From Pseudomonadota bacterium (lineage in GTDB: Bacteria > Pseudomonadota > Alphaproteobacteria > Micropepsales > Micropepsaceae): a DNA stretch of 64,000 bases. The stretch spans positions 1 to 64,000 of the forward strand of contig JACQDN010000026.1 of NCBI GenBank assembly GCA_016201105.1, given 5' to 3'. Shown here one piece after another: positions 20,388-35,756 of this stretch. Positions within the stretch are counted from its first letter, which is position 1, and each line of letters opens with the position of its first letter. The translations under genes were made by a program, and so were the position numbers. The notes under the pieces were generated by a model. That model was given only the letters and a program-made list of their open reading frames with translations, was not told where the DNA came from and did no database searches.

Positions 20388-22191
20388 CGCGCTCGCCGCC
20401 GGCTTGGCGACGCTGATGTGTCAGCCGCTTTGGGCGCAGGATTCCCCTTCCCCTCAACAGAGCCAAACACAACAGAACCCGGACAGTACCGCTCTTCCGG
20501 CGGACCAGACAGCGCCGGACTCACAACCACTCGACTATTCCAACGCGCCCACGTCCTTGCGCAAACCCGACGCGACCAGCGTCCAAGTCGGCGGCTTGGG
20601 CAATTCGGAAGGTCTGGCCGTTGGCACGCTCGACGACGGCCATGGCGGGTACAGCGCCGATCTTTGGAGCGGAACGCCGCGCTCGACGGTCGATATGCTC
20701 ATCGGTGATCTTCCCGCGACAACACTTCCTTCGTTGCGCGATATCGAGCGCCGCTTGCTTTTGGCCAAAGCTGACGCACCGACCGGCGATGCCGTGCACG
20801 CGTTTCAAACCGTGCGCTTGCGCAAGCTGATGGCATTGGGCTTCGTGAACGACGCCGCGACCATCGCCATGAACGCGAGCGTGCCCAACGATACGGAATT
20901 CGCGCGTGTCCAGGCCGATGCGCTCCTCTACGGCGGCAATCCGTCCGCCGTGTGCAGTGATGCCACTGCTACGCGCACGACGAGCGCGGAATCATTCTGG
21001 ATCGAGCTGCGCGCCTATTGCTATGTGCAGGCGGGCGACGCCGATGCGCTCGAACTCACCCAAAACGTGATGAGCGCACAAAGTCTGAGCGATCCGACGT
21101 TCGACACATTGTTCGCCGATATTCAAAACAAGGCCTCCGATCCACCGCCGTCGATCGACAAACCGACGGCGTTGCAAGCGTTCTTGGCCAAGCAACTGGG
21201 ATTGCCGGTCGACGAGAAACTCGGCCGCGACCTCGGCACGCCCGTCGATTTGATGGCATTTCACGACGAGCGGGGTTCGCTGGACAGCCGCCTGGATCTC
21301 GCTGAACGCCTCATTCAATCCGGCGCCTATTCGGCGTCCGATCTCCTGGCACTCGCTGACCAGGCGAAGTTCAAGCCGGACGACATCGCGAATGCGGACA
21401 CCGCAGTCCAGAAGCTTACCTTCTTCAGAGGTCAGGCGCTGTTGCGCCAGGCTGCGGCGCAAGCGCCGGACGACGCGTCACGCGCGCATCTTGTGGCGGC
21501 TGCGCTGCATCTGGGGACGCAATTCAACATGTTGCCACTGGTAGCGCAGTTGCAGGCCGAGGCCGCGGTTCGGATCAATCCGAACCCCGCTTTGAAGAAC
21601 AACACCGAGCAAATCGGTTTCGCGTTGATTTTGGCGGACAACGCTCCCGCCGCGTCGCGCTGGGCAGCGCTGCTGAACGAAGACGGTGACGCCCAGCTCC
21701 ATGCGCGGTTTCACACGCTGTTGAATCTGTTTCCCATCACGGCCGATCAACAGAAGATCGCGTTCAAATCGCTGCAATGGCTGGCCGGCGAAGCCAACTC
21801 CCGCGAGCCCGAAGGCGGCGAGACCACACGCGAAATCGCGGGCCTCGTTTTCGGACTCTACAATGTGCTGGGCGAAGCCATTCCGCCGGACATCGAGAAG
21901 GATTATGCAGACGTCAAGCAGCATCTGTCGGTAGGCCGTTCGATTCCGCCCAATCTCCTGCAAAGCATTCACGCGGCGCGTGGCAATTCCTCCCGCAGGG
22001 GTGAGGCCTTGGCGGCCATCGTCGAGGCGGTGGGGCCGCAGGGACCTTCCGATTTATCGCCGGATGCGATCGTCGAGCTCGTGCAGGCGATCAAGGACGA
22101 TGCCGGCGCATCCGCGGCGCACGATTTCGCGGCAGAAGCGCTGGCGCTCTATGTGCCGCAACTGCCTCCGCCACCGCCGGCGGCGCAATGA
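20350..22191 (+). CDS. Exported protein of unknown function, helical-repeat type
   Basis: 613 residues from the ATG at 20350. A signal peptide (MKRPSPTTAFRLSALAAGLA, then ending near PLWAQ) is followed by a low-complexity Pro/Gln/Ser stretch to about residue 70. The rest is alanine- and leucine-rich with alternating helices (for example RLRKLMALGFVNDAATIAMNA and PLVAQLQAEAAVRINPN), suggesting a TPR- or Sel1-like solenoid, though no textbook motif is clear. The stop overlaps xerD by ATGA. Homologues upstream of xerD in other alphaproteobacteria are uncharacterised. Confidence 0.8.
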   Translation: MKRPSPTTAFRLSALAAGLATLMCQPLWAQDSPSPQQSQTQQNPDSTALPADQTAPDSQPLDYSNAPTSLRKPDATSVQVGGLGNSEGLAVGTLDDGHGGYSADLWSGTPRSTVDMLIGDLPATTLPSLRDIERRLLLAKADAPTGDAVHAFQTVRLRKLMALGFVNDAATIAMNASVPNDTEFARVQADALLYGGNPSAVCSDATATRTTSAESFWIELRAYCYVQAGDADALELTQNVMSAQSLSDPTFDTLFADIQNKASDPPPSIDKPTALQAFLAKQLGLPVDEKLGRDLGTPVDLMAFHDERGSLDSRLDLAERLIQSGAYSASDLLALADQAKFKPDDIANADTAVQKLTFFRGQALLRQAAAQAPDDASRAHLVAAALHLGTQFNMLPLVAQLQAEAAVRINPNPALKNNTEQIGFALILADNAPAASRWAALLNEDGDAQLHARFHTLLNLFPITADQQKIAFKSLQWLAGEANSREPEGGETTREIAGLVFGLYNVLGEAIPPDIEKDYADVKQHLSVGRSIPPNLLQSIHAARGNSSRRGEALAAIVEAVGPQGPSDLSPDAIVELVQAIKDDAGASAAHDFAAEALALYVPQLPPPPPAAQ

Positions 22192-23162
22192 CCGCCCAGA
22201 AGAGAACCGTCGCGCCGGTCAACGCGACCGCGATCGAATCCTTTCTCGACATGATGAGCGCCGAACGCGGCGCCAGTTCCAACACGCTCGCCGCCTATCG
22301 CCGCGATCTTCTGGATTTCGTCGCGTCGCTGTCGCGCACCGATCGCAATGTGAAATCCGCCACCCGGGACGACATCAAGCGCTATCTCGCCGCGCTATCC
22401 ACGTCGGGCTCCGCCGCCTCTTCGCAAAGCCGTCATTTGTCGTCGCTGCGGCAGTTCTATGCGTTTCTTTATTCCGAAAGCCGGCGCGGTGACGATCCCA
22501 CCAACGCGATCGAGGCCCCGCGCCGCCAACGGCCATTGCCGAAGATCCTGTCGCAGGACGATGTGCTTCGCTTGATCGACGCAGCCCGACAGGGCGCGGA
22601 GAAATCTTCCGAAGGGTTGCGCCTTCTTTGCATCGTCGAGCTGCTCTATGCCAGCGGACTGCGGGTCTCCGAACTTGTGACATTGCCGCTTGGCTCCGCG
22701 CGCTCGCGTGAAGGCTTTATGCTGGTGCGCGGCAAAGGCCAAAAAGAGCGCATGGCGCCGCTCAACCCGGCGGCACGCGAGGCCATCACCGCCTATCTGA
22801 CGGTGCGCGATGAATTCATTCCGCCCGGCCAGCGCAAAAGCGGCAGCAAATATCTGTTTCCATCGCGCGGCGCCGAAGGATTCCTTACCCGCCGCCGTTG
22901 TCATCAGCTCTTAAAGGCGTTGGCGCTGAAGGCGGGATTGGATCCTGAGAAGCTCTCGCCGCATGTGCTGCGGCATGCATTCGCCACACATCTGGTGGAG
23001 GGCGGCGCCGATTTGCGCAGCGTGCAGACCATGCTCGGCCATGCCGATATCGCAACCACGCAGATTTACACCCATGTGGCGCGCAGCAAGCTGCAGTCCG
23101 TCATGGAAGCCGCGCATCCGCTGTCGCGCTCTCGCGCCAAGGGCGGCAAACCGCGCGGTTGA
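22188..23162 (+). CDS. xerD: Tyrosine recombinase XerD
   Basis: 324 residues. The N-terminal SAM-like core-binding domain starts FLDMMSAERGASSNTLAAYRRDL. The catalytic domain shows the full set: Arg in LYASGLRVSELV, Lys in RGKGQKERM, His-x-x-Arg in PHVLRHAFATHL, and His and nucleophile Tyr in LGHADIATTQIYTHV. With XerC it resolves chromosome dimers at dif during division. It is preceded by a housekeeping gene and has no att-like repeats, so there is no sign of an integrated element. Confidence 0.93.
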   Translation: MTAQKRTVAPVNATAIESFLDMMSAERGASSNTLAAYRRDLLDFVASLSRTDRNVKSATRDDIKRYLAALSTSGSAASSQSRHLSSLRQFYAFLYSESRRGDDPTNAIEAPRRQRPLPKILSQDDVLRLIDAARQGAEKSSEGLRLLCIVELLYASGLRVSELVTLPLGSARSREGFMLVRGKGQKERMAPLNPAAREAITAYLTVRDEFIPPGQRKSGSKYLFPSRGAEGFLTRRRCHQLLKALALKAGLDPEKLSPHVLRHAFATHLVEGGADLRSVQTMLGHADIATTQIYTHVARSKLQSVMEAAHPLSRSRAKGGKPRG

Positions 23163-24265: not shown

Positions 24266-24450
24266 ATGCGTACAACACTTGCCCTTGACGATGAGCTTGT
24301 CGACAAGGCTCAGGCATTTACCGGGCTCAAGGAAAAATCGAGCCTTGTGCGCGAAGCGCAGCTTTGATCGAGCGCGAGAGTGCGAGACGTCTCGTTCAGC
24401 TCGGGGGCAGCGAACCAAAGCTTAAACCTGGCCGCCGCCGCCGTCATTTA
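24266..24450 (+). pseudogene. Frameshifted VapB-type antitoxin relic
   Basis: ATG at 24266 reads MRTTLALDDELVDKAQAFTG then KEKSSLVREAQL and stops at 24367 after 33 residues. Shifting frame just after this point gives ALIERESARRLVQLGG and a basic tail. Together this is a DUF2191/VapB antitoxin: N-terminal ribbon-helix-helix-type DNA-binding segment and C-terminal toxin-binding tail. A net loss near 24358-24361 breaks it. No VapC PIN toxin gene follows; the sigma-factor gene starts on the other strand within the tail. Confidence 0.75.
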
Positions 24451-25343
24451 GCGAACGCTTCGCTCAACCGCTCGAGCTTGTCGGGATTGCGTACGGCATA
24501 AAGTGCGGTGATGCGATTGCCGTCAGTTTCGACGGTCATCACCGCGAAGATGTTGCCGTCGGCGCGCAGGATCAGCCCAGGTTGACCATTGATCTCTGTC
24601 AGCGTCGTGTCGAATTCTGCTTTCGTATAGAACTTTCGCTCCAGCCCGAGGATGAACCGCACGACTTTGTCGGCGCCGTAGATCGGATTGAGCGCCGCTG
24701 CCACGCGCCCGCCGCCGTCGGTATAGGCGATGACGTCCGGCGCCAGCAGTTCCGCCATCTTCGTGGCGTCCGAAGCAGCGCTGGCCTGGGCGAAGCGCAC
24801 AAGAAGCTCGCGGTGCTGATCGCCGGAAACCGCAAAGCGCGGACGATCCGTCTTCACCCGCTCCCGCGCGCGGCTCACCAGCTTGCGGCAGGCCGCTTCG
24901 GTCTTGTTCAGCGTTGCGGCGATCTCGTCATAGTCGCAATCGAACGCGTCGTGAAGAATGAAGGCTGCGCGTTCTTCGGGCGACAAACGCTCCAGAACGT
25001 GCAGCAGGGCGAGTGAAAGGTCGGACGCGAGTTCCGCTCTTGCCGCCGGCTCGTCGGCGGCAAGAGTCCGCATGTCGTCCGGCAGGATCGGCTCCGGCAG
25101 CCAGGGTCCGACATAGCTTTCGCGCCGCGCGCGCACGGCGCGCAGAGCGTCGAGCGAGAGGCGCACCGTCGCCGCCGATAACCAGGCGCGAGGATCGCGA
25201 ATTTCGCTCGTATCGACACGTTGCCAGCGCAACCATGCTTCCTGCGCTACATCTTCGGCAGCCGCCATTTCGCCCAGCATGCGATAGGCGATACCCATCA
25301 GATGGCCGCGATGCTTTTCTAAGAGGGCTGTATCGGCGGTCAT
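24444..25343 (-). CDS. ECF41-family sigma factor with SnoaL-like C-terminus
   Basis: 299 residues. Sigma region 2 (GIAYRMLGEMAAAEDVAQEA) and region 4 (LSPEERAAFILHDAFDCDYD then helix-turn-helix) are followed by a roughly 110-residue SnoaL-like domain that modulates activity in this family. Three ECF41 signatures are present: WLPEP at residues 81-85 in the linker, DGGG at 209-212 and NPDKL at 286-290. ECF41 factors control an adjacent COE-type gene (carboxymuconolactone decarboxylase, oxidoreductase or epimerase); such a gene is directly upstream here. It has no anti-sigma gene nearby, as expected for the family. Confidence 0.93.
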   Translation of the reverse strand: MTADTALLEKHRGHLMGIAYRMLGEMAAAEDVAQEAWLRWQRVDTSEIRDPRAWLSAATVRLSLDALRAVRARRESYVGPWLPEPILPDDMRTLAADEPAARAELASDLSLALLHVLERLSPEERAAFILHDAFDCDYDEIAATLNKTEAACRKLVSRARERVKTDRPRFAVSGDQHRELLVRFAQASAASDATKMAELLAPDVIAYTDGGGRVAAALNPIYGADKVVRFILGLERKFYTKAEFDTTLTEINGQPGLILRADGNIFAVMTVETDGNRITALYAVRNPDKLERLSEAFAK

Positions 25344-28955: not shown

Positions 28956-29909
28956 TTATTTTGCCATTTCGACGATCTGCGACGAAACCCAACAGGTATC
29001 GTTTTGCTCGGTTTTCACCTCGTACCAAACACCCTCCCTGTTTGCGGTAGGGTAAAGCAGTGTACCTGGCGACAGTGAGCGCAGCACTTTGCTCTTCGAT
29101 TTCGGGCCGGCATAGCAGTGGCCAGGCTTTGTCACATTGAGCGCTTGTGCCGGTGCCTCGGTGCTCGCATTGCCCAGACCGCCCATTTGCTCGACCAATT
29201 TGGTGTAAGCGTCGATGTAGGCAAGCGCCACGACTTGGCCGATGCCGGTATTCTGATAGCTGGTGACGCCGGCCCCGCCGCCGCCACTCCAGTTGGCCCA
29301 ACCGGCGCCAACGCCGAAGCCGATGTCGGTCTTCGAGCCATGGCCTTCGGTGATCGGTCCCATTTCGCCGGTGCGCACGTTGGCGATCGAGAGAACGACG
29401 TCGGCAGTCTTGCTGTTGATACTGATGTTGCTGACGATCGCACCGACGCCACCACCGATCAGGCCGCCCAGCACGCCACCGACATTGGTGCCGTTCGCAT
29501 TGTTGTTCTTCGAGGCAATGTCGGGAATGAGGATGTAGTCGGCGGCCTTGAGCTGGCCCTTGCCCATGTTCGATTGATTCTGCAATTGGCCCTCACCGGC
29601 CAGATCGCGTTCTTGCTGGATCATTTCGAAGCCCTTGCCCCGAACCACAAGGGTGAAGCAGCCCGATCTCTGCACGAACACTTTGAGGAGCGCTTCTGGC
29701 GATTCCAGGCCGAGGCCCTCCCACCATTTGTTCTCCGGTTCTCGCACTGCGATGGTGCCAAGATTTCGGGTGCAGGTGGGAATCTCCGCCACCTTGCGTG
29801 CCGTCTTGTCCTTGATCGATTCCGCTTGTGCCGGTGCTAGTGCCGGCAGGACGAACGCCATCGCCATCGCGCTTGCGGCGGCGGCGCGCAGGATTACCCC
29901 GATGCGCAT
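28956..29909 (-). CDS. CsgG/HfaB-type secreted protein with C-terminal SH3-like region
   Basis: 317 residues from the ATG at 29909, with AGAGAGGATCAC as ribosome site. A signal peptide (MRIGVILRAAAASAMAMA...) is followed by a CsgG-like domain: GKGFEMIQQERDLAGEGQ, then KAADYILIPDIA, then TADVVLSIANVRTGEM. CsgG relatives form outer-membrane secretion pores or anchors such as HfaB in holdfast. No lipobox Cys is seen. The C-terminal 70 residues (SKSKVLRSLSPGTLLYPTANREGVW) look like a bacterial SH3 domain. No curli or holdfast genes are nearby. Confidence 0.8.
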   Translation of the reverse strand: MRIGVILRAAAASAMAMAFVLPALAPAQAESIKDKTARKVAEIPTCTRNLGTIAVREPENKWWEGLGLESPEALLKVFVQRSGCFTLVVRGKGFEMIQQERDLAGEGQLQNQSNMGKGQLKAADYILIPDIASKNNNANGTNVGGVLGGLIGGGVGAIVSNISINSKTADVVLSIANVRTGEMGPITEGHGSKTDIGFGVGAGWANWSGGGGAGVTSYQNTGIGQVVALAYIDAYTKLVEQMGGLGNASTEAPAQALNVTKPGHCYAGPKSKSKVLRSLSPGTLLYPTANREGVWYEVKTEQNDTCWVSSQIVEMAK

Positions 29910-30076
29910 GTGATCCTCTCTGTTGAAGGCTAGAAAGCCTGGAAAACCTTGGTGTGCGGCCTTATCCATCACACCGGATAAGACTAGCGAATGCCGGGAA
30001 ATCCGCAACGGGCGGATTTCCTGGAGAACAGGCGCTTTTGCCGGATTTGTGCTAGAGTTTCGCTTCTGGCGTAACT

Positions 30077-30090
30077 GTCCGTATACGGAC
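30077..30090. promoter_or_regulatory. Perfect 14-bp palindrome before the first small membrane gene
   Basis: GTCCGTATACGGAC is an exact dyad with no spacer, ending 18 bases before the ATG at 30109. The position, over the expected transcription start or -10 region, is typical of a repressor operator. The regulator is not identifiable. Confidence 0.55.
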
Positions 30091-30108
30091 TAAGTGTTGG
30101 GGGTAATC

Positions 30109-30444
30109 ATGCATATGCTTTTTGGCGCGGTGCTTCATGTCACCGTGTTTGCAACTCTCGCGTTTTTTGTTCTGTTCGCGGCGAGCAAGTCCGATGGGTT
30201 CGTCGCCCTGCTGGGCCGCTTGCTCGGCTACTGGTTCCTGCTGCTGGCCGTTCTTGGCCTGGTCATGGCCGTCATGTTCCATCTGTCCGGCGGCAAGCCG
30301 TTCGGAATCGATATGATGAAAGATCATCCAGGCTGGATGCACCAGTGGGACCGTGAGGCGCCGCCGCCTCCGCCCAATACCACGCCTGCAACGCCTCCGG
30401 CCAAGGACGTCGCTCCACCGCCGGCGCCGAAGAAGAAAGGCTGA
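30109..30444 (+). CDS. Small membrane protein, first of a tandem paralog pair
   Basis: 111 residues from the ATG at 30109 after TTGGGGG. Two membrane helices: LHVTVFATLAFFVLFAASK, then GYWFLLLAVLGLVMAVMFHL. They are joined by KSDGFVALLGRLLG. A cytoplasmic or periplasmic tail of about 35 residues is rich in proline and alanine (PPPPPNTTP...) and ends in KKKG. It is clearly paralogous to the gene at 30562: the ASK(S/T)xGxVAL(L/I)GR(L/V)L motif is shared. Function is unknown. A GTG start at 30094 would add five residues. Confidence 0.75.
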   Translation: MHMLFGAVLHVTVFATLAFFVLFAASKSDGFVALLGRLLGYWFLLLAVLGLVMAVMFHLSGGKPFGIDMMKDHPGWMHQWDREAPPPPPNTTPATPPAKDVAPPPAPKKKG

Positions 30445-30469
30445 CGCAAGAACTTTACACATGAAATTG

Positions 30470-30506
30470 ATTCACGCGCGGCATTGCCAGGATGTCGCGC
30501 GTGAAT
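30470..30506. promoter_or_regulatory. 11-bp inverted repeat between the paralogous membrane genes
   Basis: ATTCACGCGCG at 30470-30480 pairs exactly with CGCGCGTGAAT at 30496-30506, loop 15 bases, followed by TTTT. It may end the first transcript. Right after it, TGCTATGAT at 30509-30517 is a good extended -10, so the second gene probably has its own promoter. The dyad could also be an operator. Confidence 0.5.
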
Positions 30507-30561
30507 TTTGCTATGATACCAGTGCCTGGTCTGGCGCTGGAACCCTTCGAGGTCCGTCAAA

Positions 30562-30861
30562 ATGCGTTTTGCGTTGAGTATCGCGATGCAAGCCACCGGC
30601 TTGGCGATTGTCGGTTTTATCTTGCTGTTCATGGCGAGCAAAACGCAGGGCGTTGTCGCGCTGATCGGAAGAGTTTTGGCGGTCTGGGTCTATTTTGTCG
30701 CCGCAGTGGTCGCAGCGGCGGGGATCATGGCCTTCATGCATATGGGACCATTCTACAATCCCATGGCGCCGCGCTATGTGCCGAACAGCTACTACCGCGT
30801 GCCGCAGAATCCGCCCATGCAGCGCCCGCTGCCCGTGAAGCCCCCGGGGCATGGGACATAG
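30562..30861 (+). CDS. Small membrane protein, second of a tandem paralog pair
   Basis: 99 residues. Two membrane helices (LSIAMQATGLAIVGFILLFM and VWVYFVAAVVAAAGIMAFM) flank ASKTQGVVALIGRVLA, the same motif as in the gene at 30109. The tail is rich in Pro and Tyr with MG-P and RVPQNPPMQRPLP segments, unlike the first copy's Ala/Pro tail, so the tails have diverged most. The product family is not one I recognise. The 3' end is 24 bases from the convergent secA stop. Confidence 0.75.
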   Translation: MRFALSIAMQATGLAIVGFILLFMASKTQGVVALIGRVLAVWVYFVAAVVAAAGIMAFMHMGPFYNPMAPRYVPNSYYRVPQNPPMQRPLPVKPPGHGT

Positions 30862-30884
30862 GACGGTCCTAGCCGAAATTCACG

Positions 30885-33608
<2,724 letters not shown>

Positions 33609-33810: not shown

Positions 33811-35124
33811 ATGGCAAAAGGTTCCGGGACGGTGGCGAAGAAGCCCCGATCTTCATCTTCCGCGAAAGCCGCTTTGGCCAATGCCAAGCAGGTGCACGCT
33901 ATTTCACCTTTGGCGCCGAAAACATTCGTCGGCCTGCCACCTCTGGCTGGTGTGAGGCTCGCCACCGGAGAGGCGGGTGTCCGCTACAAGGACCGCACCG
34001 ACGTTCTCGTCGCAGTGTTCGCGCCGGGCACCCAGGTGGCCGGGGTCTTTACCAAGTCCAAAACTTCCTCCGCGCCGGTCGATTGGTGCCGCGCCCAGAT
34101 GAAGGCCGGCACCGCCCGCGGTCTGGTCGTGAACAGCGGCAATGCCAACGCGTTCACCGGCAAAGCCGGTTTCGAGGGCGCCCGCAGCGTCGCCGAATCC
34201 GCCGCCGGCGCCATTGGTTGTCGGGCGAGCGAAGTGATGCTCGCCTCCACCGGCGTCATCGGCGAACCGTTGCCCGCCGATCGCATCACAAAGATTCTGG
34301 CATCGCTGGTGGAAGCGGGATCTGCCAGCGGCTGGCGCGCTGCCGCCGAAGCCATCATGACGACGGACACCTATCCCAAGCTTGCAACTGCCGCGGCCGC
34401 CATCGACGGTCGCAAAGTCACCATTAACGGCATCGCCAAAGGCTCCGGCATGATTGCGCCCGATATGGCGACGATGCTTGCCTTCGTCTTTACGGACGCG
34501 AACCTGCCGTCGTCCGTGTTGCACGATCTGTTGGCGCAAGGTGTGAAGCCGTCCTTTAATTCCATCACGGTCGACAGCGATACATCCACCAGCGACACGC
34601 TGCTTCTTTTCGCGACCGGCAAGGGCGCGAGCCATGCCGCAATCACCAAAGCCAACGACAAGCGTCTTGGCGAGTTCAGGAAACAGCTCGACAAGGTTCT
34701 GCTCGATCTTGCCTTGCAAGTCGTCAAAGACGGCGAGGGCGCGCAGAAGCTGATCCAGATCGACGTCGGCGGAGCGCAGTCGGACGACTCCGCGCGCAAG
34801 ATTGCGCTGGCGATCGCGAATTCACCGCTTGTGAAAACTGCCATTGCGGGCGCGGATGCGAATTGGGGCCGCATTGTCATGGCGATCGGCAAAGCCGGAG
34901 AGCCTGCCGATCGGGACAAGCTGAAGATCTCGTTTGGCGGCAAAGTCGTCGCCGAAAAAGGCTTGCGCGCCTCAGGCTACGACGAAGCCGCGGCGACGAA
35001 AGCGGTGTCGGGCCGCGAGGTGCACATCGCAGTCGATCTCGGTCTCAACAAAGGCGCGGCGCGGGTCTGGACCTGCGATCTGACCCATGGATACATCGAT
35101 ATCAACGGCAGTTACCGCAGCTAA
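33811..35124 (+). CDS. argJ: Bifunctional ornithine acetyltransferase/N-acetylglutamate synthase
   Basis: 437 residues. ArgJ transfers acetyl from N-acetylornithine to glutamate in arginine synthesis, and in the bifunctional form can also use acetyl-CoA. The self-cleavage and nucleophile site is [13 protein letters not shown], with Thr in the MAT-M-L motif; the GAVKHAS-type N-terminal region reads [16 protein letters not shown] 30-residue basic and Ala/Ser-rich extension precedes the domain. Conserved [11 protein letters not shown] and [18 protein letters not shown] are present. The next gene is mutT, 87 bases on. Confidence 0.95.
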
Positions 35125-35211: not shown

Positions 35212-35610
35212 ATGAAGACGATTCTTGTTGCTGCTTGCGCATTGATCGATCCCGACGGGCGGGTGTTGATCGCGCAGCGACCGGCCGACAAGAGCATGGC
35301 GGGGTTATGGGAATTTCCGGGCGGCAAGGTCGAGACAGGAGAACGTCCCGAAGAGGCGCTTATCCGGGAACTTCGGGAAGAACTTTCCATCGCGGTGAAG
35401 GAAGCCTGTCTGGCGCCGTTCACTTTCGCTTCGCACAGCTACATGGACTTCCATCTGCTGATGCCGCTCTACGTATGCCGCAAATGGGATGGCATCGTGG
35501 TGGCGACGGAACATCAGGCGCTCAAATGGGTGAAGCCGCGCGATCTGCGTTCCTATCCGATGCCGCCGGCCGACCTGCCGCTCATAGCGATGCTCGTCGA
35601 TCTGCTTTGA
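35212..35610 (+). CDS. mutT: MutT-type Nudix hydrolase (8-oxo-dGTP diphosphatase)
   Basis: 132 residues. The Nudix box is GGKVETGERPEEALIRELRE followed by ELSI; the usual Gly after the EE motif is replaced by Ser. It would remove oxidised dGTP from the pool; the WEFPGGK stretch and RPADKSMAG are typical of MutT. I use the ATG at 35212; an in-frame GTG at 35197 adds five residues and has AGGAAG upstream. The stop overlaps the likely TTG start of the Flp pilin. Confidence 0.9.
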   Translation: MKTILVAACALIDPDGRVLIAQRPADKSMAGLWEFPGGKVETGERPEEALIRELREELSIAVKEACLAPFTFASHSYMDFHLLMPLYVCRKWDGIVVATEHQALKWVKPRDLRSYPMPPADLPLIAMLVDLL

Positions 35611-35756
35611 TTGCATTCATCGGCGACTGTTCCGGCGCCACCTCCATCGAATACGCCATGATTGCCGCGGGCATTTCCGTCGCCATCATCACGGCGCTCG
35701 GCGTGCTCAGCGTCAACGTCAAAGCGCTGTTCGATTCCATCGTTGCCGCGCTTTAG
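35607..35756 (+). CDS. Flp/Fap-type pilin
   Basis: 49 residues from a TTG at 35607 that overlaps the mutT stop. GDCSGATSIEYAMIAAG is the class III prepilin signature: cleavage after Gly10, Glu15 at +5, then Tyr and a single hydrophobic helix (ISVAIITALGVL). Flp pilins build Tad pili for surface attachment. No tad/cpa genes are near, so this is an orphan copy. Usual Flp prepilins start with MKxF, a little longer basic leader; the reading here gives MIAF, so the start is the least certain part. Confidence 0.65.
   Translation: MIAFIGDCSGATSIEYAMIAAGISVAIITALGVLSVNVKALFDSIVAAL

Follow-up and report, generated by a model that had tools for sequence, protein, structure and literature searches.

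What are the two small membrane proteins encoded in tandem at this locus, and does the perfect palindrome ahead of the first one act as its operator? The region lies in a window of 64,000 nucleotides, by which we mean the whole stretch of DNA that was analysed. Open reading frame (ORF) translations confirmed both small genes at 30109 and 30562. The features on which the argument turns are the following.

28956-29912, minus strand: CsgG-like gene, divergent neighbour (CsgG, E 1.8e-12)
29994-30024, strand not applicable: inverted repeat with 13-nt arms and a 5-nt loop, between the CsgG-like gene and P0001
30050-30058, plus strand: extended -10-like box TGCTAGAGT of P0001, recognised by eye
30077-30090, strand not applicable: exact dyad GTCCGTATACGGAC, within what is presumed to be the 5' leader of P0001
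30109-30444, plus strand: P0001, a two-helix membrane protein of 111 aa with a Pro/Lys-rich C-terminal tail containing few His and Met
30470-30506, plus strand: hairpin with 15-nt arms followed by TTTT, candidate terminator of P0001
30509-30517, plus strand: extended -10-like box TGcTATGAT of P0002, recognised by eye and overlapping the end of the T-run
30519-30540, plus strand: P0002 leader hairpin of 8 pairs with a 6-nt loop (z -2.8)
30562-30861, plus strand: P0002, a divergent paralogue of 99 aa with a Tyr/Pro-rich tail and Gln at the position of the family's His10
30885-33608, minus strand: secA, convergent neighbour, assigned by family search

The C-terminus of the CsgG-like protein shows a weak SH3-like match that remains below the cut-off (SH3_3, 22.4 bits against 27), and argJ follows beyond secA at 33811. 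Elsewhere the window carries a phage-integrase-family gene (22188-23162), a gene for a sigma-70-family factor (24444-25343) and an ORF ending in a Flp-type pilin domain (35235-35756).

An earlier note made from the sequence of this DNA had described the two proteins as sharing two helices joined by ASK-x-x-G-x-VAL-x-GR and differing only in their tails. The shared motif is indeed there (ASKSDGFVALLGR in P0001, ASKTQGVVALIGR in P0002; 41% identity by BLASTP over residues 1-39), and sequence comparison agrees that the genes are a paralogous pair. The second half of the description proved wrong, as the identity over the alignment is only 28%. For comparison, P0001 shares 41-52% identity with 14 relatives from the genus and 27% with the distant relative G164. 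In a tree of the family the end branch of P0002 is 1.45 long, the median being 0.29; the placement of P0002 is unsure, and the two paralogues do not fall together. The pair is also not conserved: the tandem arrangement was seen in one of the 14 family-bearing genomes of the genus, namely the source genome, and the two copies of G054 are on separate contigs. Across 15 loci of relatives (in G062 a contig end cuts off the sequence upstream of the gene) P0001 and P0002 each match at most one place per locus. We therefore take the tandem pair, seen in one genome, to be a duplication that is either old or has diverged fast.

The proteins had been called undescribed, and this held. Neither P0001, P0002 nor their relatives match a Pfam or NCBIfam family above its curated cut-off. 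Weak sub-threshold hits to Sdh_cyt (PF01127), DUF2768, TrbC and others are scattered over the members (best E 0.0094), and the helices of these families are likewise hydrophobic and of comparable length. A PDB sequence search returned a single hit with E 0.99, and none of the five matches from a fold search with the AlphaFold model had E <= 0.001. Four PHROGs families were hit; the strongest of them, which has no known function, was hit by 4 of the 17 members (lowest E 1.8e-4), and a holin-named family matched one member (E 0.0028). PADLOC gave one hit (E 0.052), neither the P0001 nor the G164 protein matched in a plasmid search, and a limited literature search found nothing on such small membrane proteins.

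Within the genus, 14 of 69 genomes, the source genome included, have a P0001-type gene, the 13 others being matched by P0001 alone with E from about 1e-13 to 1e-27. A search with profile A2, which already contains most of the genus genes it recovers, returned the identical 14 genomes. Beyond the genus, distant relatives were accepted in G164, G645, G641, G720, G721 and G722. In draws from the class, G164 was accepted among 190 genomes, and G164, G645 and G641 among 289; in the family of G645 all four genomes carry a relative, and in that of G641 two of five do. Two profile searches of 398 genomes across the phylum gave no further accepted relative, while two close peptide patterns led to eight loci, all from metagenome-assembled genomes labelled 'Alphaproteobacteria bacterium'. 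These counts leave aside P0001 hits with E > 1e-6 (within the genus and outside it), P0002 hits with E > 1e-3, profile hits with E > 1e-4 (nine rows of one search and one of another) and seven profile rows falling in long ORFs of 633-1415 aa (E 9e-5 to 9e-4). A hit in G119 was discarded because it sits within a transporter-like ORF. In the three closest family pairs dN/dS is about 0.1 (0.06/0.62, 0.08/0.63 and 0.08/0.75), which shows purifying selection on the frame in those pairs. Tails evolve fast, with tail dN at 1.21 and dS at 1.19 in the distant pair G022/G062. For the most part, then, the find amounts to an uncatalogued but ordinary family of orphan membrane proteins, narrow and patchy in distribution.

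The AlphaFold model of P0001, the one member for which a structure was modelled, places helices at residues 2-27 and 31-59, and contains no other helix longer than three residues (pLDDT 75, pTM 0.42). P0001 and P0002 share the family's K/R-x-x-G turn, G30 and G36, present in all 17 aligned rows. Ala25 occurs in 16 of them, and His10 in helix 1 in 15, including P0001; the exceptions are P0002 (Gln) and G164 (Leu). The mean net charge is 0.0 at the N-terminus, +1.29 in the turn and 0.0 over the first 20 tail residues, a balance that favours an N-out/C-out orientation. The turn is thus probably cytoplasmic and the disordered C-terminal tail probably periplasmic.

Tails of Pro/Gly/Met/His-rich composition are known from metal-binding and envelope-spanning proteins. 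Across the family the tails are enriched in Gly as well as in Pro, Met and His; pooled over the 17 rows, they contain 7.4% His, 9.0% Met and 20.9% Pro, against 3.6, 4.3 and 1.8% in the core, and cysteine is at 0.3%. Binding of metal ions or contact with the envelope of the cell is a possible task of the tail. A fuller version of the metal idea holds that the His10 helix and a His/Met/Trp tail capture metal in the periplasm, that one lineage has the module fused to a chelatase-like domain, and that the second copy of this genome has diverged to a different set of ligands while a palindromic operator sets the expression of the first. A candidate for such a fusion exists in another family, where the two-helix module of G641 (L133:1279-2547) and G722 (L203:487-1770) is joined to a part weakly matching the sirohydrochlorin nickelochelatase CfbA (NF033198, E 5.4e-5 and 1.2e-5). 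These matches, at 23 and 25 bits, lie far below the cut-off of 120, and a Pfam scan of the G641 fusion protein gave no match. The likeness to CfbA is confined to the fused C-terminal part, whereas P0001 and P0002 have no such part and carry a tail only. Further, in G055 a CusA/CzcA-like heavy-metal efflux gene (L077:8499-11597; 672 bits, just under the cut-off of 701) lies about 2 kb from the hairpin gene. These hints are thin, and the tail of P0001 itself has two His and three Met in 52 residues, that of G060 one His and three Met in 43, so metal handling is a possibility only and its fuller version is improbable. By eye, a gene resembling cysteine synthase adjoins the fusions in both G641 and G722.

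Neighbouring genes offer little further guidance. The earlier note had asked what lies next to such genes; no constant neighbour was seen around the family in the relatives compared. Products of secA, argJ, accA, the CsgG-like gene and two further genes of the window had no matches in the 15 loci (4.5-12 kb). A glyA-type gene adjoins the family gene in G062, G022 and G048 (by family search in G022, by eye in the others). There is also an association with rquA, the gene of the rhodoquinone methyltransferase: in all five genus genomes where both genes were detected (G021, G069, G068, G067 and G054), the hairpin gene lies directly downstream of rquA. Together with the weak Sdh_cyt hit of P0001 (E 0.073), this arrangement would suit a role as partner in the metabolism of rhodoquinone or quinone. 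However, rquA occurs in 14 of the 69 genus genomes (three with two copies), as does the hairpin gene, and the five shared genomes compare with 2.8 expected by independence (P 0.11). Nine of the 14 genomes with a hairpin gene, the source genome among them, have no rquA match, and the hairpin gene is missing from nine of the 14 that have rquA, some genomes being incomplete. The Sdh_cyt scores, 13.6 bits for P0001 and 10.7 for P0002, fall well short of the cut-off of 25.8. Further, at 8 of the 12 rquA places that lack the hairpin gene (L205, L208-L212, L214 and L216), rquA stands beside a gene that by eye is SMP-30-like, one such gene, that of L083, having been tested as well; in G068 and G054, and in G067 judging by the start of that gene, the hairpin gene lies between rquA and the SMP-30-like gene. 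The hairpin gene therefore looks inserted, and a role in quinone metabolism is very unlikely. In our reading the hairpin gene is independent and moves between genomic sites. Another RND-type gene was noticed beyond rquA in G068 and G067, the latter by eye.

How the two genes are transcribed can be approached from the signals around them. A scan for two-hexamer sigma-70 promoters over 29880-30900 found none (0.3 expected); both -10-like boxes are assignments by eye. The second gene had been placed behind an 11-bp inverted repeat and an extended -10; both elements are present, but the arms measure 15 nt (30470-30484 and 30492-30506, 93% complementary) rather than 11. This intergenic hairpin folds at -27.9 kcal/mol (z -5.6), and a terminator scan that required five T left out the stretch 30470-30512, whose stem is strong and followed by four T. 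Because a very stable fold is followed by TTTT, the hairpin resembles a terminator, and it is more plausibly the end of P0001 than an operator of P0002. The inverted repeat at 29994-30024 also folds well (z -5.4 on the plus strand, -3.7 on the minus strand) and has no other copy with up to three mismatches in the window. Neither intergenic stretch has repeats beyond itself in the DNA compared.

The dyad is the most striking of these elements. It is exact over 14 bp, as had been claimed, and is the sole exact copy in the window. It begins 18 bp past the -10-like box of P0001, which places it in the presumed leader. With up to three mismatches the window holds five matches against 1.6 expected, a number reached by 4 of 100 shuffles. 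The leader of the G048 orthologue carries GTCCGTACACGGAC, which retains 13 of the 14 dyad bases at a similar position, between TAGAGT, the hexamer that recurs from the -10-like box of P0001, and GGGGG. In mononucleotide shuffles of the G048 leader, 1 of 200,000 reached 13 of 14, which corresponds to about 1e-4 after correction for the 17 leaders. The two genes are separated by a dS of about 1.7, at which synonymous sites are saturated, and the spacer toward the -10-like box is little alike. As the dyad persisted nonetheless, selection on it is likely in the P0001/G048 pair, whether as a DNA operator or as a leader hairpin, and the P0001 leader probably carries a genuine element here. The single difference in G048 falls within the two central bases and is compatible with both roles. 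As only two of the 17 family leaders examined have it, the dyad is not a feature of the family. Three papers that contain the dyad core look unrelated, judged by their titles and the opening lines of their abstracts.

Other copies had been proposed as a check on the dyad, with random scatter in coding DNA counting against it. The pattern GTCCGTNNACGGAC occurs at 32 places in 14 genomes against 4 for the reversed control, and is thus eight times commoner. Apart from the window, the second exact copy of the source genome and the G048 leader, 29 sites were fetched, and 27 of them lie within ORFs called by a simple in-house script (two of these ORFs, at L162 and L182, being short and doubtful). 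The two intergenic sites, L163 and L181, are as many as coverage predicts, 12.5% of places lying outside ORFs. At 14 of the 29 sites the sequence encodes Pro-Tyr-Thr-Asp. Seven of these are in thiC-type genes (L158, L166, L171, L176, L179, L183 and L185; L171 by family search, the others by the peptide DTSGPYTD), where the coding palindrome is GTCCGTRYACGGAC (Gly-Pro-Tyr-Thr-Asp), and three in Do-type proteases (L164 by family search). Coding for this peptide explains much of the excess. The scatter in coding DNA was therefore largely found, although the copy in the G048 leader is not random; no clear multi-gene operator emerged, and a large regulon, for which the 32 places against 4 had spoken, was rejected as unlikely.

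Within the source genome the picture is somewhat different. There are two exact copies, of which the second is inside an ORF (G000:C14), and 15 places with up to two mismatches, where the reversed control gives 5. Of the two copies with one mismatch, one is in an ORF with a ThiC-like start and the other starts on the final base of an ORF. Among 13 loose copies, that is, the 15 places less the window's own and one left out, 5 lie outside or straddle called ORFs (3 wholly outside, 2 across an ORF end) against about 1.4 expected from the 11% of places outside ORFs, a difference with a binomial P of about 0.01 that was computed after looking. This counts against an operator serving strictly one gene. 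Those outside called ORFs include two copies with two mismatches, one between divergent ORFs (L191:2008) and one 142 bp before an ORF that by eye is MotA-like (L197:2015).

Four accounts of the dyad have to be weighed. Palindromic operators of repressors with a single target are a general kind of control element, and the dyad resembles them in being a perfect 14-bp inverted repeat near the presumed transcription start, its regulator being putative. We favour an operator of this kind just inside the P0001 leader. The strongest competitor, possible though clearly less probable, is a hairpin in the leader RNA (GUCCG-UAUA-CGGAC) that would make the mRNA more stable or adjust the access of ribosomes, the symmetry of the DNA being incidental. 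Its location, past the -10-like box and ahead of the Shine-Dalgarno sequence, would suit such a hairpin, as would the change in G048, which alters the loop from UAUA to UACA, and the fold of the P0002 leader. Perfect stems of at least 6 bp occur in 6 of the 17 family leaders, four of them unrelated in sequence and the others being those of P0001 and G048, and the summed best stem of 81 exceeds the expected 70.8 with a combined p of 0.03. This value was, however, obtained after looking and some of the leaders are related; folding of whole leaders reveals no obvious excess of structure (mean z of -0.23 for the 17), and the P0001 leader alone reaches a z of -0.68.

That the palindrome arose by chance and has no function, its match in G048 reflecting shared ancestry alone, is unlikely, and a shade less credible than the RNA hairpin. 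The Pro-Tyr-Thr-Asp codons that dominate its recurrence in the genus and the position of the second exact copy inside an ORF speak for chance, while the retention of 13 of 14 bases beside a diverged spacer, between genes with a dS of about 1.7, speaks against it. Still harder to credit is a small regulon with degenerate sites of which the dyad would be one. The threefold count over the reversed control, the share of loose copies outside ORFs and, in relatives, the sites L163 and L181 upstream of ORFs and L162 in a doubtful one would accord with such a regulon. Against it, the intergenic share in relatives does not exceed coverage, the loose copies have one or two mismatches except for one exact copy, five of the eight loose copies within ORFs spell Pro-Tyr-Thr, and no common theme is visible among the genes at the sites.

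Collectively, the reading we prefer, with a probability of roughly 0.4, combines three parts: an inner-membrane hairpin family, a dyad that is an operator-like leader element, and separate transcription of P0002. P0001 would be an inner-membrane helical hairpin, its two helices joined by a short K/R-x-x-G turn and followed by a C-terminal tail that is disordered, and its gene would be self-contained, with a promoter-like box of its own. The dyad would most likely bind a dimeric regulator of P0001, or else form a small hairpin in the leader. P0002, strongly diverged, would have a transcript of its own beyond the terminator-like hairpin of P0001.

For the genus as a whole, the dyad holds a warning: a 14-bp palindrome may recur in genome after genome largely through the Pro-Tyr-Thr-Asp of conserved proteins and not through a shared operator. 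Should the metal-capture idea be true, the module would act at the inner membrane on copper or some other metal. Regardless, the locus introduces a family of small inner-membrane proteins not yet catalogued, which is under purifying selection in its close pairs and occupies varied genomic sites with no constant partner.
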